Origin: Candidatus Zixiibacteriota bacterium
Lineage (GTDB): Bacteria; Zixibacteria; MSB-5A5; GN15; FEB-12
Assembly: GCA_028289585.1 (NCBI GenBank)
Contig: JANQPI010000010.1
Span: 1-64,000, forward strand
DNA: 64,000 nt
Reading direction: 5' to 3'
This document shows, one piece after another, positions 30,153 to 43,956 of the stretch. A model generated the notes under the pieces. The model was not told where the DNA came from. It worked only from the letters and a program-made list of their open reading frames with translations, and did not search any database. A program made the translations under genes and the position numbers. How positions within the stretch are numbered: position 1 is the stretch's first letter; each line of letters starts with the position of its first letter.

Positions 30153-30226
30153 GGGGTCGTAGTTCAGTTGGTTAGAACGCCTGCCTGTCACGCAGGAGGC
30201 CGCGAGTTCGAGTCTCGTCGACCCCG
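30153..30226 (+). tRNA. tRNA-Asp (anticodon GTC)
   Basis: A 74-base gene: acceptor stem GGGGTCG/CGACCCC, D arm GTTC-AGTTGGTTA-GAAC, anticodon arm CCTGC-CTGTCAC-GCAGG with anticodon GTC, T arm GCGAG-TTCGAGT-CTCGT, discriminator G, no encoded CCA. Its 3' half (30188-30226) is overlapped in antisense by the end of the serine recombinase gene, which marks it as the likely integration site of the neighbouring island. The tRNA is structurally intact. Confidence 0.97.
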
Positions 30227-31660
30227 CTTTGATTTGAATGAAGCCCCTTCGGCCAGTATGTCGAAGGGCTTTTTGTATGTGGGATAAAGAGTTCCGCGTG
30301 TGAATGTCGAGTTCGATAGTATCTTTCGCAGCAATTGAGCCTTATCAGTGGCATCTCGACCCAAGTAACTGTCATAGGCGGAGTTTGCGAGTTCTAGAAT
30401 CCGCACTCCCGTCTCGAAGTAACTCAGTGACGCGTGCTCCAAGGCCGCTAGCTCCTGGCGGACAGTGATGAGTTCATCCTGCCATTCCGTTGACTTTCGC
30501 GTCCACAGATCGGTCGTTATCGAGCCGTCGAGTTTGTCCTCGTAGGCATTGTCGATCAACTTCTGCAGACGCGTCTGGCGGCCCCGTAACGCCTTCGTGC
30601 TCTGCTCTCGATGGGCGAGTTGGTCCTTCTTGCTGCTCTTAAGCGCGCTCTTGATATCCTCGACCACATCGGTGCCTATTCTGATCTGAGCGAGAGCATC
30701 CGCAAACAGTTCGTCGAGCGCTTCCTGTCGAACATACGTGTTGCCGCACTTCCCACGGTAACCGGTGCAGTGGTAATACACGTACTTGCCCTTCTTTATC
30801 TCGGCGGTCATGGCGCAGCCACAGAGTCCACATTTCACTAAACCGGAGAAGGCGAAGCTATTCGATGACGGTGTCGGCGTTCGTCCACCCGAGAGCACCG
30901 CTTGAACGTCATTAAAGAGCCGCTTGCCGATTATGGCCTCATGCGAGCCAGAGTACCGTTTTCCTTTCCAGATGAACTCGCCATAGTAGATGGGATTCTT
31001 AAGGACGCGATGGATGCCAGCTTTGTTAATCACTTGAGAGTTGCGGGAGAATAGGCCCGACGTCTTGGCCAACGCGGCAAGTTGTTCCAGCGACCAGTTG
31101 CCTGTAGCGTACTTTGAGAATAGCTCCTTGATGAGATTGGCTTTCTTGGGATCTGGCACAATCGTATGATTGACTTTGTCGTTTACATAGCCCACGGGTG
31201 CTCGGTGAGGCCACTTGCCCTGCGCCGCCTTCTCGCTTAGTCCCTTTTTTACCTCTTCGGACAGATTGTCGCAGTAGTTCTTGGCCATTAGGACGCGAAT
31301 GCCGTGCATGAATTTGTCAGTTGACCTTGAGTCCTTGGTCAGTACCTGACCTTCTTTCACGAAGTGAAGTTCGAGATCCAGCTCGTCGAGCGCTACCCAG
31401 TCCTTGATGTTTCGGTACAGGCGATCGGTCTTTTCTACCAGGATAGCGCCACAGTCAGGCTGCTTCTTGAGGAACGCGAGCATCTTGCCAAACTGTGCTC
31501 GGCCTGCCTGCTTGGCTGTCTCCACATCTTGGAACTCTTCCAAAATTCGAATCCGATTGTCGGAGGCGTATCGCTTCAGCAGTTTGATCTGGGCAGGGAT
31601 TGAGAATCCCTCCCGCTCCTGCTCTTTTGAGGAGACCCTAGCGTAAATGACACACTTCAT
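30188..31660 (-). CDS. Large serine recombinase (site-specific integrase of a genomic island)
   Basis: A 490-residue recombinase. Residues 1-140 are a resolvase domain starting 'MKCVIYARVSSKEQEREGFSI' with catalytic Ser10; a Recombinase domain follows ('PVGYVNDKVNHTIVPDPKKA', 'IHRVLKNPIYYGEFIWKGKRY'). A zinc ribbon (CGLCGC...HCTGYRGKCG) and a coiled coil come next. The last residues (about 13, ending in RRDSNSRPPA) are encoded by the antisense of tRNA-Asp, and the codons before them span the tRNA terminator. That is the typical result of an element inserting into a tRNA gene. It catalyses integration or excision through a 5' phosphoseryl bond. Start at ATG 31660, overlapping the XRE stop (ATGA); the frame extends upstream to 31741 but is not needed. 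Confidence 0.93.
   Translation of the reverse strand: MKCVIYARVSSKEQEREGFSIPAQIKLLKRYASDNRIRILEEFQDVETAKQAGRAQFGKMLAFLKKQPDCGAILVEKTDRLYRNIKDWVALDELDLELHFVKEGQVLTKDSRSTDKFMHGIRVLMAKNYCDNLSEEVKKGLSEKAAQGKWPHRAPVGYVNDKVNHTIVPDPKKANLIKELFSKYATGNWSLEQLAALAKTSGLFSRNSQVINKAGIHRVLKNPIYYGEFIWKGKRYSGSHEAIIGKRLFNDVQAVLSGGRTPTPSSNSFAFSGLVKCGLCGCAMTAEIKKGKYVYYHCTGYRGKCGNTYVRQEALDELFADALAQIRIGTDVVEDIKSALKSSKKDQLAHREQSTKALRGRQTRLQKLIDNAYEDKLDGSITTDLWTRKSTEWQDELITVRQELAALEHASLSYFETGVRILELANSAYDSYLGRDATDKAQLLRKILSNSTFTRGTLYPTYKKPFDILAEGASFKSKRGRRDSNSRPPA
30241..30274 (+). terminator. Terminator of tRNA-Asp, lying inside the recombinase coding region
   Basis: Stem CCCTTCG/CGAAGGG, extended by AAG/CTT past a bulge, followed by TTTTT, starts 15 bases after tRNA-Asp. 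On the other strand these bases are read as codons of the recombinase. Confidence 0.75.
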
Positions 31661-31845
31661 CGCTTGGCCTTCTTCTCGCCGAGGAGCTTGCGAATATGGA
31701 ACTCCTGGATTTTGTTTGGCCTTGTGTGACCATTGAGCCATCGATTGACTGTCACAAACGCCACACCTAACATCTCAGCAAGTTGTTCTTGAGTAATGCG
31801 TCGTTCCAGCCGGTGCTCTTCGAGTTTCGATATCAAGTCTTTCAT
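31657..31845 (-). CDS. Small XRE-family HTH repressor
   Basis: A 62-residue protein, almost only a Cro/C1-type helix-turn-helix: 'LISKLEEHRLERRITQEQLAEMLGVAFVTVNRWLNGHTRPN'. It is coupled to the serine recombinase (ATGA overlap) and therefore probably regulates it. A near-consensus promoter upstream places the transcription start at or next to the ATG at 31845, so the message should be leaderless. A GTG at 31872 is in frame and overlaps the integrase stop, but it would start inside the promoter. Confidence 0.85.
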   Translation of the reverse strand: MKDLISKLEEHRLERRITQEQLAEMLGVAFVTVNRWLNGHTRPNKIQEFHIRKLLGEKKAKR

Positions 31846-31850
31846 GTAGC

Positions 31851-31879
31851 ATAATATATCATCGCATATCACTTGTCAA
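31851..31879 (-). promoter_or_regulatory. Near-consensus sigma-70 promoter of the XRE-recombinase pair, leaderless
   Basis: On the minus strand TTGACA and TATTAT are separated by exactly 17 bases. The -10 box ends only 5 bases before the ATG at 31845. The spacer carries TGATAT twice, 10 bases apart, a possible operator for the XRE protein. The -35 box lies in the last codons of the integrase gene. Confidence 0.8.
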
Positions 31880-32972
31880 CCGCCATTTGCAGGGTCTTTA
31901 GAGCCGACTGGATATCCTCGCGGGCGATGCCGTTCGTTTCACTCTCTTTGTTTTCAGAGAATCTCATCCGGGATATAACATCCGCGACCCTAGAAGAATC
32001 GAGATTCCCGTAGCTCCTTAGTGTTGTCAGTACGTGTTCGTGTCCGAAGTTTTGGCTGAGTGCCTTGAATTCTTCAGGTGTTCGTGCCCATTTCAACGCA
32101 ACCTGACAGGCAGCATGACGAAAGGAGTGCGGGGGAAAGTAAGGGAGACCGGCAGCCTCGAATCGGGCTTGAAGGATCTCTCGAATGCTGTTGCCGCCCT
32201 TCCAAAACACCGGTTCGACTCCGTGTGCTCTAAACCCAAAGTTATCCCCACCTTGGGCCACTCTGGTTCGAGGAAACAATGGGTCGGTAGGGCCAAATCG
32301 CTTACCGGATTTGAGGTAATGCACCCATTCCCTGACAATTCCTACAAACGACTTGTCCAAGGGCAGAAGCCATGTCGTGATCGCCTTTCCACCCTTGGTG
32401 TGGACGCCGAGCCTCGATTCTTGCTGCACCACCAACTGCTCTTCGTCAAAACAGGCTAGGCTCAATGTACATAGTGCTTGGTATCGTATTCCCGTGAGCA
32501 TCATGAAGGCGATCAGTGCCTGATCCCGCTTGTCCAGCTCGTTTCTGACATCAATGGATTGAACCAGTTGTCTGATTTGGTCCAGCGATGGAAATCTTCT
32601 TGGGCGCGATGAGAGCACGTCTCGCACCGAGCGTCGATCCAGAGACAGATAGGACACGGCATCAAGACTGACCTTGGATTTGTAGCCGGATTGAGAAGCC
32701 AGCCAGGAAAAAAACCCGCTGACGTGTCGTAGAGTGTGATACATGGTTGTCTTCGAGACTGGTTTTCCGTTAGTCGACCCGTCCTCCATCCATGATTTGA
32801 AACTCTTTGCCTGTCTCGCTGAGAACGTCTTGTAGCACTTATGTCCGGTCGACTCGTCGAACATGTGAATTGCTCTTTCGATTGCATCAATCGTCGGTTC
32901 GGCATACCCCTTGGCTCCTCGAAGCCAGCCCAAATAGCGCCTCTTAACTTTCTCGTTCTTATGTCTAGGCAT
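31869..32972 (-). CDS. Tyrosine recombinase / phage-type integrase
   Basis: A 367-residue recombinase. N-terminal SAM-like core-binding domain at about 1-125 ('GYAEPTIDAIERAIHMFDESTG', 'TTMYHTLRHVSGFFSWL'), catalytic domain from about 130. The active-site set is complete: R163 (TGIRYQAL), K196 region, H282 and R285 (HSFRHAA), H311 (NFGHEHV), nucleophile Y321 (LRSYG). It therefore looks active. It begins 3 bases after the HTH/zinc-ribbon gene. Together with the serine recombinase it makes two unrelated integrases side by side, suggesting nested or composite elements. Confidence 0.92.
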   Translation of the reverse strand: MPRHKNEKVKRRYLGWLRGAKGYAEPTIDAIERAIHMFDESTGHKCYKTFSARQAKSFKSWMEDGSTNGKPVSKTTMYHTLRHVSGFFSWLASQSGYKSKVSLDAVSYLSLDRRSVRDVLSSRPRRFPSLDQIRQLVQSIDVRNELDKRDQALIAFMMLTGIRYQALCTLSLACFDEEQLVVQQESRLGVHTKGGKAITTWLLPLDKSFVGIVREWVHYLKSGKRFGPTDPLFPRTRVAQGGDNFGFRAHGVEPVFWKGGNSIREILQARFEAAGLPYFPPHSFRHAACQVALKWARTPEEFKALSQNFGHEHVLTTLRSYGNLDSSRVADVISRMRFSENKESETNGIAREDIQSALKTLQMAVDK

Positions 32973-32975
32973 CGA

Positions 32976-33476
32976 TTAGTTGCCTGTCCTTTCATCAGTG
33001 TTTAGGTGAGTAGAATGAGAACCCGACAATCTCTGAGTACCTTGTTGTAGCTTGGGCCAGAATGAAGTCAAGAAGATCGCCTTCATCGAACTCAGCCTGA
33101 TAACGTTCGCGCCACATCCGGGGCACAGTCCTCGTACTCTGACCGCCTGGACTCCATTTCCGAGCCACCTCCCGACTACTTCGACCGTGATGGTCTGAGG
33201 ATCTGGGACGACCCCGGAGTGGCACCTGAGACAGTACACTTGGTTCGCTTGAAGCTTTGACTTTCGGCGAGCGATTCGACTCCTCAGGAACCCTCGAACA
33301 ACTGAGCCCAGGAAAAGTAGGGGTCTTTCTGATTCGTCGATAGGCTGCAAGCCTTGCTTTCGCCAGTTGTGGACAGTCTGCGCATGAACTTTGAGCGTCT
33401 GACTGAGCTCTGCGGACGTATAGGATCGATGGGATCTTAGCCGACAGATGTTGAGTCTACAACTAACTCGGCTCAT
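32976..33476 (-). CDS. Helix-turn-helix protein with a CxxC...CxxC zinc ribbon
   Basis: A 166-residue protein. Residues 18-45 make a MerR/helix-turn-helix-like motif ('SYTSAELSQTLKVHAQTVHNWRKQGLQPID'), followed by a basic helix and a zinc ribbon formed by C82/C85 (YCLRCHSG) and C118/C121 (GLCPGCGA). It overlaps the small gene upstream and is only 3 bases ahead of the integrase, so it is probably a directionality or DNA-binding factor for that integrase. Family not recognised. Confidence 0.7.
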   Translation of the reverse strand: MSRVSCRLNICRLRSHRSYTSAELSQTLKVHAQTVHNWRKQGLQPIDESERPLLFLGSVVRGFLRSRIARRKSKLQANQVYCLRCHSGVVPDPQTITVEVVGRWLGNGVQAVRVRGLCPGCGANVIRLSSMKAIFLTSFWPKLQQGTQRLSGSHSTHLNTDERTGN

Positions 33477-33908: not shown

Positions 33909-35762
33909 CTACTTGCCGAAAGACTTGTCCACGATACGGAATCTTGCGGCCCATCCAACTTGCTTGCGATAGCGTGAGATGGGGTTATCGCTCAGGCCAA
34001 AGAATTCTCGCAGTATCCTATTCAGCGATTCGATCTGCTTCCCGACGGTATGACTCGCACTGCTGCTGGACCAATTGATAACTCCACCAGACTCAGCCAT
34101 TTGACACAGCAGTTCCCATTGCTTGTTTGGCAGATCAACCTTTCGCTTGTCGCGGAAGCCAATATCAAGTGCGACGTATTTCTGACTGACCCTTCCAACA
34201 CTCACGCGCAAGGAGTCTCTGGATAGTATCTCGATGATTACCTGATCCCACTTCGTGTTTTCCGGTGTCGGGAAACGGTAAGTGGCACGCTTTAGCGTTG
34301 GGCCAGTGATTGATTCGCCGACGATTATTCCAAGCAGTGACTTGGGATGAATTTTCCGCTTCCTGATCATCTCCGCGTTTGACTCAATCTGTGCCCGGAC
34401 TACAGACCCGACCTGAGTGCCGTGACGTTTGTGAAGGTCATATATCATCTGACCCGCCTCGTTAGGCTTGCCGTCAAGTGATCCGATGATTGTGTAGAAA
34501 TCTGGAAAGTGTTGTACGAAGTCGAAGTCGCTCATGGTTTCCAAGAGGCCTGCGTGTTGAATGTAGCTCTCAACCATCGTTAGATCCTCTCGTCGATCCA
34601 GCGCATTGAGGAACAGGCTCGACTGGTAACGATCCTCTGGATCACACGACTCCAAGTCGTTAGCCATTACTGCTATTCTCCGTTCGATGCACTGGGAACA
34701 CACTCCGCAATGATTCTGATATCCCGTTGTACTGCGGGTTCGAGTGCAACTGTGCGAGTCGATTATCAAATCTGCGGTGTCCCTGTGCTTAAGGAGCTCC
34801 AGCACATCGGTCTTGGTCTTAGCCAGAAAGGGATTCCTGACCGAGAAACTGCGATCAAGCAGTGCGGAGAAGAAATCTGACATCAACTTGAGCGACTTGG
34901 GATGTGTAGATCGACTGGCACGGGCACCTACGACTTGTCGAGAGATTGGTAGATTACAGCTCACAATACCGTTCTCGTAGAACTTAATAGCATTCGACTC
35001 AGTCATCATTGCCAGAACTGTGGCTATCGATGCATAGAGGAAGGAGCGAGTCCTCTGATTTGCGTCCTTTGTAATTCCTTTATCCTTGTTGACCCAAACC
35101 GGCACATGAAGAATCCGTCGAGACGCGTCAAAACGCCGAGCAAGTGCTGCCATTAGGTCTCGTTGCGACTTGTCTATTGTCGATACGGGCCTGTGGCTCA
35201 CCAGCATCACTTTGCGGTTTGGGTCCTGAAGTTCTTCCACAGCTCCTGTTAGTGAGTCAAGTCCACCTGAGAATAGAAGAATTGAGTCCGGCTTGAACCA
35301 TGGCTTCCCTTCGTCGAGCGCGAAGTACGCGTCTCGGGAGACGTCTCGTACTGTCCCTCGGAAGTTGAAAGTGAATGTGTCCTCCGAGAGGAATCCGAGC
35401 AAAGTCGTCAACTTGTGCTTAACTTCGGTTGATCTCCAGCGTTCTGGAAGCCGTACTGGAATAGAAAGTTCAAACTGCCGGTACCAATCGGCGCCGTTTC
35501 GTGGAAAAGTGGCTCCGCCTCGCGTTTTGCTCTGGTCAGCGCAGTACACGTAGGCAGCTATCTCCAGTAGATCGAGCGCTAGAGGAGGTAAGTGCTGATA
35601 CATCCGGGAACTGATGTTTTCGGCTCTCAGGTAGACATTGTTCTGAGATGGTATTGAATTGAGGAAGCTCGAATATTGGGACTTACTCCCTTTTGGTGGA
35701 TCGTCGGGACCACACCAGATTCGAGTCACTCTGTCTGATGCGTTACTGTCCACCCCGTTCAA
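33909..35762 (-). CDS. QueC-like PP-loop ATPase, probable defence protein
   Basis: A 617-residue protein built around a QueC (7-cyano-7-deazaguanine synthase) fold. PP-loop 'LLFSGGLDSLTG' has S165; the QueC zinc site is present as NHCGVCSQCIERR (C352, C355, C358, with a further Cys upstream in HSCTRTRS). Unlike true QueC (about 230 residues) it has a 150-residue N-terminal and a 230-residue C-terminal extension. These QueC paralogues occur in Qat and type IV CBASS defence systems, where modification of a protein N-terminus is reported. No other queuosine gene is nearby. It overlaps the 262-residue gene upstream; start TTG at 35762 or GTG at 35753. Confidence 0.85.
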   Translation of the reverse strand: MNGVDSNASDRVTRIWCGPDDPPKGSKSQYSSFLNSIPSQNNVYLRAENISSRMYQHLPPLALDLLEIAAYVYCADQSKTRGGATFPRNGADWYRQFELSIPVRLPERWRSTEVKHKLTTLLGFLSEDTFTFNFRGTVRDVSRDAYFALDEGKPWFKPDSILLFSGGLDSLTGAVEELQDPNRKVMLVSHRPVSTIDKSQRDLMAALARRFDASRRILHVPVWVNKDKGITKDANQRTRSFLYASIATVLAMMTESNAIKFYENGIVSCNLPISRQVVGARASRSTHPKSLKLMSDFFSALLDRSFSVRNPFLAKTKTDVLELLKHRDTADLIIDSHSCTRTRSTTGYQNHCGVCSQCIERRIAVMANDLESCDPEDRYQSSLFLNALDRREDLTMVESYIQHAGLLETMSDFDFVQHFPDFYTIIGSLDGKPNEAGQMIYDLHKRHGTQVGSVVRAQIESNAEMIRKRKIHPKSLLGIIVGESITGPTLKRATYRFPTPENTKWDQVIIEILSRDSLRVSVGRVSQKYVALDIGFRDKRKVDLPNKQWELLCQMAESGGVINWSSSSASHTVGKQIESLNRILREFFGLSDNPISRYRKQVGWAARFRIVDKSFGK

Positions 35763-36510
35763 ACTCGCTTGCTATCTTTTTAAACGCTATGTGTGCATAT
35801 TTCTTGACCTCCTCAGGTCCCGTTCTCTTCTCGAAAATAGCCTTGCCCATCCAGCCGGGGCTGAACTCATCCGAGATACGGACGGTCTGTCTGCACAACA
35901 GATCAAACGCCTTATTGAATTCGGAGTGACTCGCCATGTTGGCAAGGCGTTGCCCTGGGCCAACATGATTGGGTAGTTCTCTGCTCAGGTAATACGATAG
36001 GTATCGGCTCGTGAAGCCTGAGTAGAACTCGTGCATGAGAGACTTAAGCTGCTTACCTCGAAAAGCCGAAGTCAGCTGCTTGGGATCGGCAGGCTCCTCT
36101 TGAAACAGAGACCCACTGCCGCTATTGATGTGGTTGCTCAGACTTTCGAGGAAGGCATCTTGTGCGATCTTCCCAACATCACTTCTCGGGAGAACTTCAC
36201 TAAGCTCGCGGGAGAGTGTCTGTGAAATGGCAGCTACAAAGCCGAGTGAGGAGGTCTGACTAGATTGATCTATGCCAACTGACTCTAGGGCAGCGGTGAC
36301 ATCATGTTCCCGCGAAGCTGCAGCGAGCTGGACTATTGCGTTGATGGTTGCAAGAAAGCCGGGATCGTCTGGGACCCGTCGCAGCCCGGTCTTGGCGGCA
36401 AAGAAACTGGCATCTGTGAGAGTCTGGAGATCGACATCCGCCTCAAGGAGGCGAATGACCTCTTTCCAACGATAGTTCCTCGGTAATGTGCCGAGTCGAT
36501 TGTGTCCCAT
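35743..36510 (-). CDS. Partner of the QueC-like protein, N-terminus Met-Gly, family unknown
   Basis: A 255-residue, mostly helical protein beginning MGHNRLGTLPRNYRWKEVIRLLE. The ATG at 36510 is backed by GAAGG at the right distance, so the mature chain should start with Gly after Met removal. Upstream reading to 36531 lacks support. Helical stretches cover most of the length ('FLATINAIVQLAAASREHDVTAALESVG', 'SSLGFVAAISQTLSRELSEV', 'KSLMHEFYSGFTSRYLSYYLSREL'). In Qat systems the QueC-like QatC is encoded next to QatB, also a Met-Gly-starting helical protein, so this may be the modified substrate. Its end overlaps the QueC-like start by 20 bases. Confidence 0.8.
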   Translation of the reverse strand: MGHNRLGTLPRNYRWKEVIRLLEADVDLQTLTDASFFAAKTGLRRVPDDPGFLATINAIVQLAAASREHDVTAALESVGIDQSSQTSSLGFVAAISQTLSRELSEVLPRSDVGKIAQDAFLESLSNHINSGSGSLFQEEPADPKQLTSAFRGKQLKSLMHEFYSGFTSRYLSYYLSRELPNHVGPGQRLANMASHSEFNKAFDLLCRQTVRISDEFSPGWMGKAIFEKRTGPEEVKKYAHIAFKKIASEFERGGQ

Positions 36511-36579
36511 GTCTAACCTTCGAGCATGCAATTCTCCGCATGCGTCTGGAGGTAATTCCCCAAAACTAGCTTTGCTCTA

Positions 36580-36619
36580 CTGCAACATTTTGCAGAGACC
36601 TGCATACATCCGATGTCAA
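36580..36619 (-). promoter_or_regulatory. Possible promoter with overlapping inverted repeat before the QueC-like pair
   Basis: On the minus strand TTGACA (36614-36619) is followed at the -10 position by the perfect inverted repeat CTGCAA-aatg-TTGCAG (36580-36595). The -10 box itself is poor (no TATAAT-like hexamer), so expression may need an activator, or the pair may be read from the methylase gene. Confidence 0.4.
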
Positions 36620-36635
36620 GACAACAACGATGGCC

Positions 36636-39600
36636 TCAGTCTTTCCAGCGTTTCTTTGAGTAGTTGAGGACCTCTTTCGCATTTAGGGCAACGGTAGAAT
36701 TGCCGCGCCTGATGTAGAGTTGCTCAACTTTGTTGTCATCGAGTAGATAGATTGGTTCCGATGAAGGGGATACTGATACTCGCCAAATGTCCTTGCCGTC
36801 TATGGTGTGGCATGTCAGCTTTACGTTTGGCGATAGGTCGGCTCCCAGGCTGTTAAAGATCAGGTCGTTGAGGAAGAGTTCATAGCCGTCACGGTTCTTC
36901 TTGTGAACGCACTGGTAGTCCTCAGTGAGACCCAAGACTTTACCGTCATCATCCACGCCTATGATCAGCTCACCACCCTCAGTGTTCAGGAAAGCAGCGA
37001 CCGTCTTGAGTACGCTGAACTCAATGCGCTTATCTTTTCTCTTCAGCTCGTAGTCGTATCTGGCAGAAGACTTGAACTCGAGCTCATTGCTTTCATCCTT
37101 TGAAATCAAGCGATTCACCAAATCGTCGCTCTCCTTTGGAGAGAAATGACGAAATGCCTCAAGCGCCTTCGCCTTGAGTACCTGGTCTACGGCTGGAAAT
37201 GCATCTAATACACTGCAGAATTCTAGTTCCGAAAGCTCATATAAGATCGCAACCAAGCCATCGATCTCGGCCTGCATCCGAATACGCTCGTTAGCGTCAA
37301 CGACTCCATTCTTGTGTGACTCAATGCCACTTGCCTTGGCCAAGCCGTCAAACTCCGGCGTAGTGGCCATCAACCTAGCTGCGCGAGATGTTATCTCTTC
37401 TGAAATGTACTCATCGTGATCGATTCGAGGACAAGCCAGCTGATACAAATAGAAGAAGTTAAGCGTAGTAGTCACTTTCATACGGATGATGAAATCGACT
37501 ACTAGACTGTTTAGCACTCCAGCGTAGTAAACCTGTTCGCGAATGCTGGTCAGTCTGTTGCCCTCTTCATCGAAGATGCGAATAGTTGGCAGCTTATTGC
37601 CATGCATGGCAGGGGGTATTACTGTTGTCACGAGCGTTCGCTCATTGGTATTCGAGGCAATGTCTCTAAAGCCCAAGCGAAACTCCTGATAGTCCATCAA
37701 TTGACCCTTATCCTCAGTTCTTCCAAGCAATACCGCTCTACCCTTGTTCTTATTTATCCAGTATCGAATGGGCGCAAACTGATGATTATAATGCCAAATC
37801 TGCTTGCCTTCATAGAGTGGCAATGATTCAGGTTGAGGCCTAGTCTCAAAGAGATGTGCATCGGATGTCATATTGAATTCTTGAGTAAATCGAATGCCCC
37901 AACCTGATTCCTGGTCGCCGATAAGAGGATGTCTATAGGCTTTTTCACAGACTTCGGCATCCTCCCGTGACTTGAACTCCATCAGGGATATCGAATCAGG
38001 AGATAGTTTCCGAATCAAGTCTAGGGAAATCTCCACCGCGCCCTGCTGCGGAAACCGCGTCAACTCTTCTACGTCGTGCCGCATGAAGGCCGCTGGGAAA
38101 CTTTCCGTCGTGCCGCCCTTTTCAAAGCTTAAGACCACGAACTTGAAGCTCCTATGGACGCCCTCAAAGATTTCTCTACGATTTTCGAAGCAAAAGAGTC
38201 CTGTTAGCTGGGTCCGGGTAAACAGCATTTCCCGAAGTTGTTTTGCTCCCAGATCGGTATAGATTCCGCTAGGTATCACAATACCACACTGACCGCCCTT
38301 ACGAAGCAGATTAACGCACTGCTCGGTGAAGAGCTTGTACAGATTGATCTTTGACGCAATTTTGTTACCTTCGGCATCGTAGGCCTGCTGGTTCTTGTAC
38401 TGCTCCGCATTCTTGAAGTAGGCTGACATATGTGGGAAGGAACTGGCATAAGCTAACCAGGCATCTCTTAGTTCAGTGTCCTTCATCAGCTTCGCGTGCT
38501 GTTTCTTCCAATCCTCAATGCGGAGCTTCTTTTTCTTGATCGCCGATTCGAAGTTTTGGAAAAACTCCTTCTCATCGGTCTGGAACACTTCCCAAGGTGG
38601 ATTGGTGATGATAATGTCAAATCCACCTTCCTCGTTAATCACTTTATCAAATTCGTAGCCCCAGTGGAACGGCCGCTGCTTAGCTATATCTTTGTCGTTG
38701 ACCGCTCGCCTTTTCTTGCCCTGTTTGTTTTTCTTCGCATCCCACGTAGCTTCCTCGAACTTGATCTTGTAGTGACGGAACTCATCGACCACAATTCGAT
38801 TAAGTGCCTGACTTGCGTCCGCGCGCAATTTGTCGATCTGATCCCGAAGAACTGTCAGATCAGCAGCTTCTCCATAGGTGTCTGACGCCCTGCGAAAATG
38901 ATCGATAAGTCGGTTCTTCTTCGCCAGAACCTCGTGATATCTGGTGAAAAAGAGATCACCTTGCTGGACCCATTCGGCCACCTGGTGATCCTCAATTCCC
39001 AGCAAGCCGATCAGTGAATTACCGGTCAGGATATTGAAGTCGATGTTGGGGAGTGGCTCTAACTGTGATTCGCTCTCGGCGGAGGATACGAGGGCGAGGA
39101 AGAGTCGCAGTTTGGCTATCTCTGTGGCCTCTTCCATCAGGTCAACGCCAAACAGATTGTCCGTGATGATTCGCTTCTTGATGTAATAGTCAACGTTATT
39201 GTGGTCCTTCTGAATTTGCTTGAGCAAGTCATTCAGGTGGCGGTCGTGCAAGAATGAGATCTTACCGAATATTGCTGAGTAGACATCAATCAGTGTCCTC
39301 ATAGCCGCGACCAGGAAGGCCCCGGAACCACAGGCTGGATCGAGAATTCTCAGGTTGGGCAGTACATCAGTCAACAGCTGACGGCACATTGGCGCGTCGA
39401 GTTTGAGCAGCAACTCGGCGAATGACTCGTAGGATTTGCCTGCGAAATGTCCGGGAATCTCCGGCTCACTCATCTTGTCCAGTATGAGCCTATGGATGGT
39501 GCGCTCACAAAGATACTCGGTAATCTCGGAGCAGGTATAGTATGCTCCGAAAGCCTTTTGATTATTCGATGCTTTTTGATTGATGTATTTCTCAAAAATG

Positions 39601-40589
39601 TATCCGAGCACAGCGGGATTGATTCGGTCGTCACTGCCGCCGGGTGTATCGTCCAGGCTCCATGAGTATGAGTTGAACAGACTCAGCAAGTTCTCAAAGG
39701 CCTTATCCGGAATCTTGATATTCTTGTACTTCTGTTCAAGTGAGTGCTCCAGGAATAGCCCGCCATTTAGGTAGCGGATCTTGCCGAGCCGCTTATTGAC
39801 GTCATTGGAGCGTTTGTCTTCCGGGACGGCGAATCCCTGAAAGAATAGATCGCTTAGAAAGACTTTGAAGTACTTGTCTCTGCCAAGCCTCTTTGATTCC
39901 TTAAGTTTATTCTCCAGGTAGTGTCTGTCGCCGCCATCTAGGAAGTACTTCAACTGCAAGAAGTAGATGAACATGAGGCGGTTCATGAGAACTGAAGCGT
40001 ACCAGCGCCTATCTCTTTCGTCATCAATGCCTTCTATCAACTCAGTAAAGGCAATGTGGTGGTCTTGGTAGTCGGTGTAAAATTTCTTGGTCACTCGCTG
40101 GATGTCGAGCGCATCCTTGAGCTTCTTGGAGATTTCGACAAGATCAATATTGCCATCATCATCAAACTCAGCGAGATCAACAAACATGGGGCCAAGCTTG
40201 GCCATGAACAGATCGCCCGGCTGTCCCTTCACGAATATGTGTTCTCGAGGAGTTACCTTTCTGCCGTCTCTCTTTCCCCAATACCAGAGACTCTGCGTTC
40301 GATTCTTGTCTACAAAGATCAAAAGGTTTTCGAGGTGGTGCTCGGAGATCCTCTTGTGAATCGCCCGCCTGGAGGTGGAGTCAGGTATGCTACCATCAAC
40401 TGCTGTGACTTCGATGACTGCCACACCAGCGAGTTGGGACAGGTGACGAGTCGTATGGACGGTACCGTCGATATCAACGTTGATGGATTCCGTTATGGTT
40501 GATCGAGACCAACCGAGCTCTTCGATAAACAACTTATCGAACTCAAACGCTTGTAGTCGCTTTCTCGCAGTCTCCAGGTTCAGTGACAT
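36636..40589 (-). CDS. Eco57I-type adenine DNA methylase fused to a C-terminal AlbA_2 (Schlafen) domain
   Basis: A 1,317-residue protein. An N-terminal region of about 400 residues resembles type IIG/ISP proteins ('FIEELGWSR', 'VLMNRLMFIYFLQLKYFL', 'FGAYYTCSEITEYL'). The N6-adenine methylase core has motif I DPACGSG at D417 and catalytic NPPW at 663-666 (FDIIITNPPWEVF). A target-recognition-like region follows. The last 150 residues form an AlbA_2/Schlafen domain ('NELEFKSSARYDYEL', 'EFSVLKTVAAFLNTEGGELIIGVDDDGKVLGL'). No PD-(D/E)XK nuclease motif is obvious. It starts 1 base after the helicase stop and should act with it on DNA. Confidence 0.9.
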   Translation of the reverse strand: MSLNLETARKRLQAFEFDKLFIEELGWSRSTITESINVDIDGTVHTTRHLSQLAGVAVIEVTAVDGSIPDSTSRRAIHKRISEHHLENLLIFVDKNRTQSLWYWGKRDGRKVTPREHIFVKGQPGDLFMAKLGPMFVDLAEFDDDGNIDLVEISKKLKDALDIQRVTKKFYTDYQDHHIAFTELIEGIDDERDRRWYASVLMNRLMFIYFLQLKYFLDGGDRHYLENKLKESKRLGRDKYFKVFLSDLFFQGFAVPEDKRSNDVNKRLGKIRYLNGGLFLEHSLEQKYKNIKIPDKAFENLLSLFNSYSWSLDDTPGGSDDRINPAVLGYIFEKYINQKASNNQKAFGAYYTCSEITEYLCERTIHRLILDKMSEPEIPGHFAGKSYESFAELLLKLDAPMCRQLLTDVLPNLRILDPACGSGAFLVAAMRTLIDVYSAIFGKISFLHDRHLNDLLKQIQKDHNNVDYYIKKRIITDNLFGVDLMEEATEIAKLRLFLALVSSAESESQLEPLPNIDFNILTGNSLIGLLGIEDHQVAEWVQQGDLFFTRYHEVLAKKNRLIDHFRRASDTYGEAADLTVLRDQIDKLRADASQALNRIVVDEFRHYKIKFEEATWDAKKNKQGKKRRAVNDKDIAKQRPFHWGYEFDKVINEEGGFDIIITNPPWEVFQTDEKEFFQNFESAIKKKKLRIEDWKKQHAKLMKDTELRDAWLAYASSFPHMSAYFKNAEQYKNQQAYDAEGNKIASKINLYKLFTEQCVNLLRKGGQCGIVIPSGIYTDLGAKQLREMLFTRTQLTGLFCFENRREIFEGVHRSFKFVVLSFEKGGTTESFPAAFMRHDVEELTRFPQQGAVEISLDLIRKLSPDSISLMEFKSREDAEVCEKAYRHPLIGDQESGWGIRFTQEFNMTSDAHLFETRPQPESLPLYEGKQIWHYNHQFAPIRYWINKNKGRAVLLGRTEDKGQLMDYQEFRLGFRDIASNTNERTLVTTVIPPAMHGNKLPTIRIFDEEGNRLTSIREQVYYAGVLNSLVVDFIIRMKVTTTLNFFYLYQLACPRIDHDEYISEEITSRAARLMATTPEFDGLAKASGIESHKNGVVDANERIRMQAEIDGLVAILYELSELEFCSVLDAFPAVDQVLKAKALEAFRHFSPKESDDLVNRLISKDESNELEFKSSARYDYELKRKDKRIEFSVLKTVAAFLNTEGGELIIGVDDDGKVLGLTEDYQCVHKKNRDGYELFLNDLIFNSLGADLSPNVKLTCHTIDGKDIWRVSVSPSSEPIYLLDDNKVEQLYIRRGNSTVALNAKEVLNYSKKRWKD

Positions 40590-40590
40590 C

Positions 40591-43500
40591 TCAGTCCCTG
40601 CTTCTTAACCCAAGTGAACATATGATTTTTGGTTCTTGAGAGGCGCCTATATCTGCTATCTGACACAGACGACCCTCGCTACGTAGCGTGATACAGAGTT
40701 CTGCCAATGCCTCGTCCGTTGCTTCGGCCCGCAATTGACGGTTCAATGCATCTGTGGCTGTCTGTCGTAGCGGGTATGTATAAATCTCTTCGATCACCTT
40801 TCGGAGGTCTGGCGTATCCCAGACCTGTCCCTGAATTCGCTCGACGAACTTCCGCAGGCGTTCATAAGTGCGAAATCGCGCACCCGAAGGTCGACCCAAT
40901 TGCCCGCCAATCTTCGACGTCTCTTTAAGGGCCATGGCTACGGCACTCTGGACAAGCTGATGATGTCCCTGAAATCTTGAGAGTGCAGAGGTATCGGGCT
41001 CACATTCGGCTGCGCGAAGAACTGCTAGCTGGGATTCCGTGATGCTGTTGCCTTGCTTATCGAGCCAGGCGAGCATGTCATTTCCCTGACTGGTTCGCAT
41101 GTAGGCTAGGACTCCTTCGGGCTGTGAGTCGGTCGGTTCGTGCGGCTTTGTGGAGTAGACTACATCCGGCATCTTTTCGATTGTCTTCTTCAATCCAGGA
41201 TCGGCTTCGATTGCATTCTGCCAAATCTGATATGCGTATGATGCCAAGTCTACCTCTGAGTCATCGTCACCATCCAGTATGCCGGATTTTTCGTTGTAGA
41301 GATCAACGATAGCCTGGTCATCGCCGTCGTCTTCAAAGAACGATTCATCGGCTCCGACAACCTCGGCATTTTCCTTTAGTCTCTGGCGTACTCGGCCGCG
41401 CAAGTTGATCACACGCTCTACGCCTTCGGCTGGCAGGAAAGAATAGCAGAGGACTTCGTCGTGCTTTTGACCTATGCGGTCGACGCGACCTGCTCTTTGT
41501 ATAAGGCGAATGATCGCCCAGGGAAGATCGTAGTTTACTACTATGTTACAGTCCTGAAGGTTCTGACCTTCGCTCAGGATGTCGGTAGTAATGAGGATGC
41601 GGAGTTCGTCGTCCGAGGCAATGTACCTCTCATTAGCGGATGGGGCGAAGCGCCATGCCTTCATAGTCGGATTGGCCGAATCGCCCGTTACCTCATCGAT
41701 CTTCTGTACTCCTCGGTTCTGCAACTCGCGATTGATAAATCTTACGGTATCAGCAAATTGGCTGAAGACCAAGACCTTGTCCTTTGGGTGCTGGTTCTCC
41801 AAGAGCTTATGAAGCGCATTGAGTTTGGTATCCTTGGCCGGTACCCAAGCGCCCAGTCTGTTCAAGAAACTGAGCAGTGCACTAGAGTCCGCGAGAAGAT
41901 GCTCGCCCAGGGTTACGTCGAACAGTGAAGACCGCAGCCACTTAAACCTCCCCTGATACTCCTTGGAATACAGCTCATACGCTGACCTAGCCATAGCGCG
42001 AAAGTCATCGTCTGAGGTTAGGCCATTTACTGCAGCATCATTCTGTTCAAGGTCGTCGCCATTATCGCTTGTGATGTTGACCGAATCCCTATCTTCGTCG
42101 CTGAAGCGAGTGTCGAGCAGGTCCGTGTCCTGTGTACCGATGGGTAACGGCAAGCCGTTCTCGATGGCATGCAAGAAAATGTAGTTACGGAGAATGTGCC
42201 GCTCCACCGACATGAGGAAAGACATTCCGCTGCTCTCGAGCCTTTTGAATAGGTTTGTTCTACAAAACCCTATGAGCCGGTTGCCAGCTCGTCCAAGGTC
42301 TGCAAGAAACTCCTCTTCGGCTCTCGATGGGAGTGGCTGCGGACTTGGCTGTTGATAGTTTCCCAATCCGTACCTGGGCAGCTTGAGTGTGTTAATAACT
42401 TGGACAACGTCTTTGTGGTACATCCTTGCGTACTGGTCGGCCGGGTCTTTGTCATTGATTGTGAACTTCACAGTATCAGGTACGCGATTGGGGAAGTAGG
42501 TGCGCGTACCGTCAGCAAATCGCAAAAAAGTCCTACCGCTGGACGAGTCGTGCTCAGCATAGTTGTCTTTGATGAAGCTACGTGTTCTGCGAACCATATA
42601 CAGACGCATGAGGTCGCGCCAGTCATCGGCGAATGGACTCTTTTCGAAGGCAGCAAGGGTTCTTGGTTGAGCCTGATACTGCTTCAGAAACTCAGTTTCA
42701 CCGAACTGCTTCAGAAGTTGTTCCGGCCGTACTCCGATATCTTGGTCGGGGGACACAAAGAGCCTTAGCTGGCTGGATAGATCGAGATAGGTCTTATTGT
42801 AAGGGGTAGCAGAAAGCAAAATTACTTTGCAGTCGTTCTTTTCTATAAACGCCTGTATGGTTTTGTACCGCTTTCCTTCCCTGTTTCGCAGGTTGTGGCT
42901 TTCGTCTAGTATCAGGAGTCGATGTCTGGTTTCATTCAGTAACTTGGTCTGAACTTCTGTTATCGACATGATGGTTGCCCGCATGCGATAGAGCTTTCTG
43001 TACGAATCCCACATAGGAGTCAGGTTTTTTGGGCAGATTATGAGTGTCTCAAGCCCTTGATCATCTTCAAAGATGCGAGCTAGGGCGGTAGCCATAAGTG
43101 TTTTGCCCAATCCGACAACGTCGCCGATCAAAACACCGTTGCGTTTGTTCAGGTGGTGGGCCGCAATCTTGACCGCTGCAATTTGAAACTCGAACAACCG
43201 ATTACCGAAGTCTTTCGGAATACGAAATTCCGCAAGGCCGGACCTTGCTTCTTGGGACAAGTGGTAGGCCATTTTGACATAGATGTGATACGGGGGCCGT
43301 TCGGTAACCCAGCTTTCCTCAATGACTTCTACCAGATCATCTGAGATGTCCACGCACCACCGATCTTCCCAACGATCACCGAACCACTTTCTCAGCTTTT
43401 CACAGGCGTCGATATCGGTGACATCGACGTTGAGCTCTCCCTGCTGAGATAGGCCCCGAAGGGTCAGATTGCTGCTTCCTACATAGCCAACAATTGGATT

Positions 43501-43956
43501 CGTGGCATCAGTAGGGCGGTATAGAAGGTAAAGTTTTGCGTGCAGAGAGTGGCGGAGATAGAGCTTTACGACGACTTTCTTCTGGCGAATCTGATCAGCC
43601 AGTTTGCGCAGCCCGATTTCGTCTGAGTCGGTTGGTACTCCAATTGTCAGTTGATCTCTGAATTCTTGGGCCAGCTTCCTCTTATAGCGAACCACAGTCT
43701 GTTGATCAAGACCGTCTGCATCTGGGTTGGCACTGAAGGTTTTTACAAGTTCTTCTCGCGGCGTTTGCATCATACCAACGAGTAACCTGCAGCAGCCTCC
43801 TTCTCCACCTGGCCATTGATCGATATAGCTGTGGAGTCTCTTCCATCCCCTGAGGTTAAAGTATCCAACACAGAAGTCAGCATGATCAGACTGATCGATT
43901 GTCTTCTGGAGCGCTTCAAGAAAGTGAAGGTCGATGTTGTCAAGTATGCGCGGCAT
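40591..43956 (-). CDS. PLD-nuclease/SNF2-type helicase fusion
   Basis: A 1,121-residue protein. Residues 1-190 are a phospholipase-D-like domain with one HxK motif (SLHAKLYLLYRP) and following GSSN (YVGSSNLTLRGL). A superfamily 2 helicase follows: 'GVLIGDVVGLGKTLMA' (motif I), LLILDESHNLRN (DESH), ILLSATPYN (III), and 'VLVFSQFADTVRF' with 'ILSEGQNLQDCNIVVNYDLPWAIIRLIQRAGRVDRIGQ' (motifs IV-VI). The same layout is common in DrmD/Res-type and related defence helicases. With the methylase it forms a two-gene restriction-like unit. It begins 17 bases after the RHH gene. Confidence 0.93.
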   Translation of the reverse strand: MPRILDNIDLHFLEALQKTIDQSDHADFCVGYFNLRGWKRLHSYIDQWPGGEGGCCRLLVGMMQTPREELVKTFSANPDADGLDQQTVVRYKRKLAQEFRDQLTIGVPTDSDEIGLRKLADQIRQKKVVVKLYLRHSLHAKLYLLYRPTDATNPIVGYVGSSNLTLRGLSQQGELNVDVTDIDACEKLRKWFGDRWEDRWCVDISDDLVEVIEESWVTERPPYHIYVKMAYHLSQEARSGLAEFRIPKDFGNRLFEFQIAAVKIAAHHLNKRNGVLIGDVVGLGKTLMATALARIFEDDQGLETLIICPKNLTPMWDSYRKLYRMRATIMSITEVQTKLLNETRHRLLILDESHNLRNREGKRYKTIQAFIEKNDCKVILLSATPYNKTYLDLSSQLRLFVSPDQDIGVRPEQLLKQFGETEFLKQYQAQPRTLAAFEKSPFADDWRDLMRLYMVRRTRSFIKDNYAEHDSSSGRTFLRFADGTRTYFPNRVPDTVKFTINDKDPADQYARMYHKDVVQVINTLKLPRYGLGNYQQPSPQPLPSRAEEEFLADLGRAGNRLIGFCRTNLFKRLESSGMSFLMSVERHILRNYIFLHAIENGLPLPIGTQDTDLLDTRFSDEDRDSVNITSDNGDDLEQNDAAVNGLTSDDDFRAMARSAYELYSKEYQGRFKWLRSSLFDVTLGEHLLADSSALLSFLNRLGAWVPAKDTKLNALHKLLENQHPKDKVLVFSQFADTVRFINRELQNRGVQKIDEVTGDSANPTMKAWRFAPSANERYIASDDELRILITTDILSEGQNLQDCNIVVNYDLPWAIIRLIQRAGRVDRIGQKHDEVLCYSFLPAEGVERVINLRGRVRQRLKENAEVVGADESFFEDDGDDQAIVDLYNEKSGILDGDDDSEVDLASYAYQIWQNAIEADPGLKKTIEKMPDVVYSTKPHEPTDSQPEGVLAYMRTSQGNDMLAWLDKQGNSITESQLAVLRAAECEPDTSALSRFQGHHQLVQSAVAMALKETSKIGGQLGRPSGARFRTYERLRKFVERIQGQVWDTPDLRKVIEEIYTYPLRQTATDALNRQLRAEATDEALAELCITLRSEGRLCQIADIGASQEPKIICSLGLRSRD

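Follow-up and report, generated by a model that had tools for sequence, protein, structure and literature searches.

The first 64,000 nucleotides of contig JANQPI010000010.1 from a Candidatus Zixiibacteriota bacterium (hereafter the window) carry on their minus strand two overlapping genes, encoding a 617-residue QatC-like paralogue of QueC (33909..35762, TTG start) and a 255-residue QatB-like partner that begins MGHNRLG (35743..36510). This pair is a widespread, mobile and stripped-down relative of the Qat system, recognised by current search models through its enzyme only. It is probably a QatB-QatC relative without QatA and QatD, with a C-terminally extended enzyme, in which the second residue of the partner, Gly2, is acylated for the purpose of defence. 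The overlap of the two genes is 20 nt if the enzyme starts at the TTG and 11 nt if it starts instead at a GTG at 35753 (MDSNASDRV...), in which case the length of the enzyme would come near that of its nearest relative; the start of the partner is backed by a ribosome-binding site, GAAGG (36517..36521), read six nucleotides upstream of the ATG at 36510. The closest named relative of the locus is found in a Candidatus Zixiibacteriota genome. A first-pass annotation made from the sequence alone had correctly described both reading frames, their overlap and the start of the partner, while the range it gave (35743-40589) takes in the partner and a neighbouring methylase but leaves the QueC-like gene outside.

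The enzyme is a member of the QatC family with intact QatC active-site motifs. It matches the QatC models of PADLOC (E 3.7e-52) and NCBIfam (NF041925, E 4.1e-56) far better than Pfam QueC (2e-6), and its best matches in the Protein Data Bank (PDB) are QatC chains (9vlk, 3.4e-27; 9zee, 1.2e-26). With 190.6 bits the window enzyme does not reach the curated cut-off of NF041925 (280 bits), a comparison made for this protein only, and all 42 aligned relatives match the same model at E<=1e-3. Its QueC core domain (PF06508, residues 160-365, 34668..35285) contains the pyrophosphate loop SGGLDS (residues 165-170, 35253..35270), with SGG, D and S unchanged in 42/42 relatives, as well as the zinc site C339...C352-G-x-C355-x-x-C358-x-x-RR (34689..34748), where the three cysteines pointed out by the first reading are joined by a further ligand, C339, and all four are invariant; RxR, ExG and THP are likewise kept by every relative. 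As in the QatC of qatABCD systems (PMC13279940; PDB 9y01, 9vlk, 9zee), with which the enzyme shares the SGGxDS, zinc-site, RxRxxxF/Y, ExG, THP and TK motifs, the Tyr/Asp substrate residues of QueC and Cap9 are replaced by Thr or Ser. The segment S283-R-S-T-H-P288 (34899..34916) is, by alignment to the PDB QatC chains, the probable counterpart of the substrate-site threonines T278/T280; position 283 is Ser or Thr in 42/42 relatives and position 285 Thr or Ser in 41/42, with Ser/Ser in the window enzyme and a single Ala among the relatives (L025). In a quick tree of moderate support and with some long branches, the long forms of the enzyme cluster apart from those of qatABCD loci.

That the enzyme could instead be a QueC paralogue serving queuosine synthesis, and the partner its accessory, is suggested by the Pfam QueC match, and fold, ATP loop and zinc site are indeed common to both, but the window enzyme does not lie beside queuosine genes, lacks the Tyr/Asp substrate residues of QueC, bears long extensions and scores far higher as QatC than as QueC. 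The host possesses separate queC, queE and queD genes (around C20:513.8-515.5 kb, about 480 kb from the pair), which places the pair outside the queuosine pathway, and QatC does not restore queuosine (PMC13329287). This explanation is therefore hardly credible, and the enzyme is not of the type that the first-pass annotation had named as speaking against its own proposal. From the presence of these host genes, the precursor carboxy-deazaguanine should be available in the cell.

Residues 1-15 of the partner form the motif MGHxRLGxLPxTxxW (36466..36510), in which M and G are invariant among the 42 relatives, followed by H3 (40/42), L6 (41/42), L9 and P10 (39/42 each) and W15 (35/42), and the MGHxRLGxLP start persists in relatives of the partner at ~20-24% identity. 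When the search was made with the body of the partner, without its first 16 residues, and the N-termini were read only afterwards, Gly2 was found in 74 of 75 distinct N-termini; homologues lacking this glycine, which would have spoken against conjugation, are thus nearly absent. Positions 1-10 are far less variable than the mean of the protein (0.94 vs 2.01 bits), and all four glycine codons are in use at Gly2 across the relatives, which shows that the amino acid, rather than the DNA sequence, is under selection. Gly2, P10 and W15 match the N-terminal glycine and the tail Pro and Trp of QatB, with differences in spacing and motif. The sole exception to Gly2 is on a phage-like contig (L056:6001-7106), where an otherwise intact partner starts MRHERLG and is followed by a frame encoding a 110-residue QatC remnant without the QueC core; this joint loss of Gly2 and enzyme core is the outcome expected if Gly2 is modified by the enzyme, and the Gly2-less partner may represent either decay or a decoy. 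On another contig (L028:1222-2515), an intact partner stands alone beside a QatC cut off after 182 residues, which suggests that the partner alone is tolerated. A plasmid QueC-like gene (L045:4318-6251) is preceded by a 187-residue protein starting MSDGPHRSLPMLQRW, which has the LPxxxRW part of the motif without Gly2 and is a possible further variant.

Both genes are found together on many contigs, a result on the co-occurrence check that the first-pass annotation had proposed. A scan of the IMG/VR database with the enzyme gave 173 relatives, of which 80 were kept, and across 40 pairs the distances of partner and enzyme correlate (Mantel r 0.85, permutation maximum 0.20), so that the pairing exceeds chance and the two proteins display paired evolution. 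Neither QatA nor QatD was detected near any member at the long-clade loci, and the same search detects both in the qatABCD plasmid loci used as a control. The window likewise lacks a cGAS/DncV-like nucleotidyltransferase (CD-NTase) partner, the companion protein having a QatB-like helical fold without family match. The initial view of a QueC paralogue of QatC type paired with an N-terminal-glycine partner, in the absence of QatA, of the TatD nuclease and of a CD-NTase, is consequently upheld.

The kinship of the partner with QatB appears at the level of predicted structure. The window partner has no family match in Pfam, NCBIfam, PADLOC or PHROGs, and the QatB model NF041924 matches neither this protein nor its relatives, save 1/42 at E 0.0034; of the two proteins that the first reading proposed to search against the QatB/QatC and Cap9 families, only the enzyme is recognised by a sequence model. 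The viral structure library gave no useful match for the partner, and plasmid and phage searches with the partners of the relatives gave none. Its AlphaFold model is helical (predicted local distance difference test, pLDDT, 85; predicted template-modelling score, pTM, 0.84) and resembles QatB of the QatB-QatC complex (9y01_A) with a Foldseek probability of 0.98 and template-modelling (TM) scores of 0.47/0.54, none of the other listed matches rivalling it (TM at most about 0.3). We take the partner to be a divergent QatB with its own motif and a much shorter tail.

Several points weigh against the proposal as a whole. Foldseek gives 9y01_A an E-value of 0.48, hence the QatB assignment rests on probability and TM-score, and profile similarity to canonical QatB in hhalign is weak (probability 21%). 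The first helix of the modelled partner starts at residue 13, leaving a tail of about 12 residues, compared with the disordered 30-90 residues that precede helix 1 in QatB (PMC13279940), and the reach of Gly2 into the active site is therefore in doubt. The Tyr/Asp pair that recognises deazaguanine is absent from the enzyme, as it is from QatC, so that a deazaguanine is no more than a candidate for the conjugated group. Lastly, the extra C-terminal domain of the window enzyme has no Pfam match and a weak structural one.

The mechanism that we favour, with these reservations, is modelled on two characterised systems. In engineered truncations of qatABCD, QatB and QatC by themselves protect against phage lambda, and defence is lost in the QatB G2D mutant and in QatC active-site mutants (PMC13279940); in type IV CBASS (cyclic-oligonucleotide-based anti-phage signalling system), the N-terminal glycine of a partner protein is conjugated by Cap9 to a 7-deazaguanine (PMC13279940, PMC11996544). 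By analogy, removal of Met1 from the partner would expose Gly2, the partner would dock on the QueC-like enzyme, and the latter, using ATP bound at its SGGxDS loop, would activate a small carboxylate for transfer to the amine of Gly2, with formation of an amide bond, carboxy-deazaguanine being one candidate among others for the attached group. The modified partner-enzyme complex could then act as a barrier to phage or competing mobile DNA entering the cell, and the C-terminal domain of the enzyme may take the complex to DNA or provide the effector. An alternative keeps the same fold and docking but regards Gly2 as an unmodified recognition element, the enzyme adenylating a nucleotide, a phage product or another target. 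This is consistent with the remodelled substrate pocket and with the fact that no in vitro reconstitution of QatC activity has been achieved (PMC13279940); the Cap9 precedent and the strict need for a glycine that Met removal would make N-terminal argue against it and leave it quite improbable.

Beyond the canonical length of QatC (~425-457 residues), the window enzyme possesses an additional domain (residues 484-617, 33912..34313), overlooked in the first-pass annotation together with the association with recombinases and the membership of the enzyme in the already described QatC family; the earlier interpretation is supported in part. This domain looks winged-helix-like in its AlphaFold model (pLDDT 85, pTM 0.79), with a weak match to the DNA-binding domain of CadC. 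The enzymes of the relatives extend about 100-240 residues past the canonical length, mostly reaching about 610-720 residues overall, and the C-terminal domain is swappable among them: a Trans_reg_C domain in L086, and a DpnII/MboI-type nuclease domain in L034 (10851-12707) and in L037 (8780-10645), a Leptospira noguchii plasmid copy, all stand above the Pfam cut-offs. A single origin of all these domains was considered and rejected, the three larger types having no mutual similarity in hhalign. The domain of the window enzyme also occurs in a 603-residue protein unrelated to QatC and without Pfam match (L036:9376-11187), which adjoins the same helix-turn-helix (HTH) and recombinase cassette as the pair, at the same position in a related element.

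This cassette lies downstream of the pair on the same strand, and comprises an HTH protein (32976..33476; weak HTH_17/MerR match, with the same gene in related elements), a tyrosine recombinase (31869..32972; Phage_integrase, 2.3e-10), whose homologues accompany varied cargo, and a large serine recombinase (30188..31741; Resolvase/Recombinase), whose 3' end runs into a tRNA-Asp gene (30153-30227). In the window and in L025, L029, L031 and L036, a tRNA and the serine recombinase gene overlap. The whole cassette (30153-33476), that of an integrative element, abuts tRNA-Asp, and in related genomes its counterparts at tRNA-Asp and tRNA-Arg are accompanied by varied cargo; no exact match of at least 14 bases to the tRNA end was found within the window as a far-end direct repeat. 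Recombinase homologues are present within about 4 kb in 70/101 loci and in 0/10 plasmid loci, which span about 9-11 kb and are mostly canonical qatABCD; the association is only suggestive because some contigs were counted twice, L036 was matched by its tail domain only and recombinases are over-represented in viral contigs.

Such a neighbourhood also fits a pair that regulates its own mobile element, at the level of excision or recombinase expression, and whose job is not phage defence: the adjacent recombinase would be controlled by the partner in its modified form together with the DNA-binding tail, in agreement with the winged-helix-type tails and with the sharing of a tail by the unrelated protein of L036. 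Against this explanation stand the nuclease tail of two distant relatives, the close homology to an experimentally tested defence core and the fact that the viral contigs searched were recombinase-enriched from the outset, all of which make it unlikely. Upstream of the pair and on the same strand, a type IIG-like methylase (36636..40589), whose C-terminal domain is of the Schlafen/AlbA_2 type, and a PLD/SNF2 helicase (40591..43956) are real neighbouring genes lying outside the system. The idea that they serve as its effector has to be abandoned, since weak homologues of both (24-30% identity) occur at only two other loci and other neighbourhoods hold type I restriction-modification or different genes; the association of the methylase-helicase with the pair is loose and not conserved, and the unit is no component of the system.

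With respect to qatABCD, the pair retains an upstream partner with Gly2 and a QatB-like predicted fold, encoded by a gene overlapping that of the enzyme. Unlike qatABCD, it has neither QatA nor QatD and often sits beside recombinases; its partner has the motif MGHxRLGxLP...W where QatB has MGTS...PxW, a far shorter tail, and escapes the QatB model; and its enzyme is longer, with an interchangeable end. With the Cap9-CD-NTase couple of type IV CBASS (PMC11996544), it has in common a QueC paralogue associated with an N-terminal-glycine partner, but the partner fold is another one, and the Tyr/Asp pocket kept in Cap9 is lost here. Protection by QatBC alone has been published, and only about one third of QatC genes in a survey neighbour qatA or qatD (PMC13329287), so that a minimal pair is in itself not new. 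In the literature searched, of which coverage was partial, no description was found of the divergent partner family, its strict motif, the tail fusions or the recombinase habitat. A bolder and rather doubtful extension would be a large mobile defence family in which modification of Gly2 directly permits DNA targeting by the interchangeable domain of the enzyme, a winged helix or a DpnII/MboI-type nuclease, with at least one phage carrying a possible Gly2-less decoy partner.

Neither the way in which QatBC halts phage nor the group that QatC adds to QatB has been settled in the field (PMC13279940), and this clade offers a natural version without QatA and QatD, with a short tail and a glycine motif that is distinct and very strictly kept, while the nuclease fused to some of its members is an activity open to direct assay. 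The case also suggests that annotation pipelines would detect the enzyme and overlook the partner, leaving such modules undercounted.
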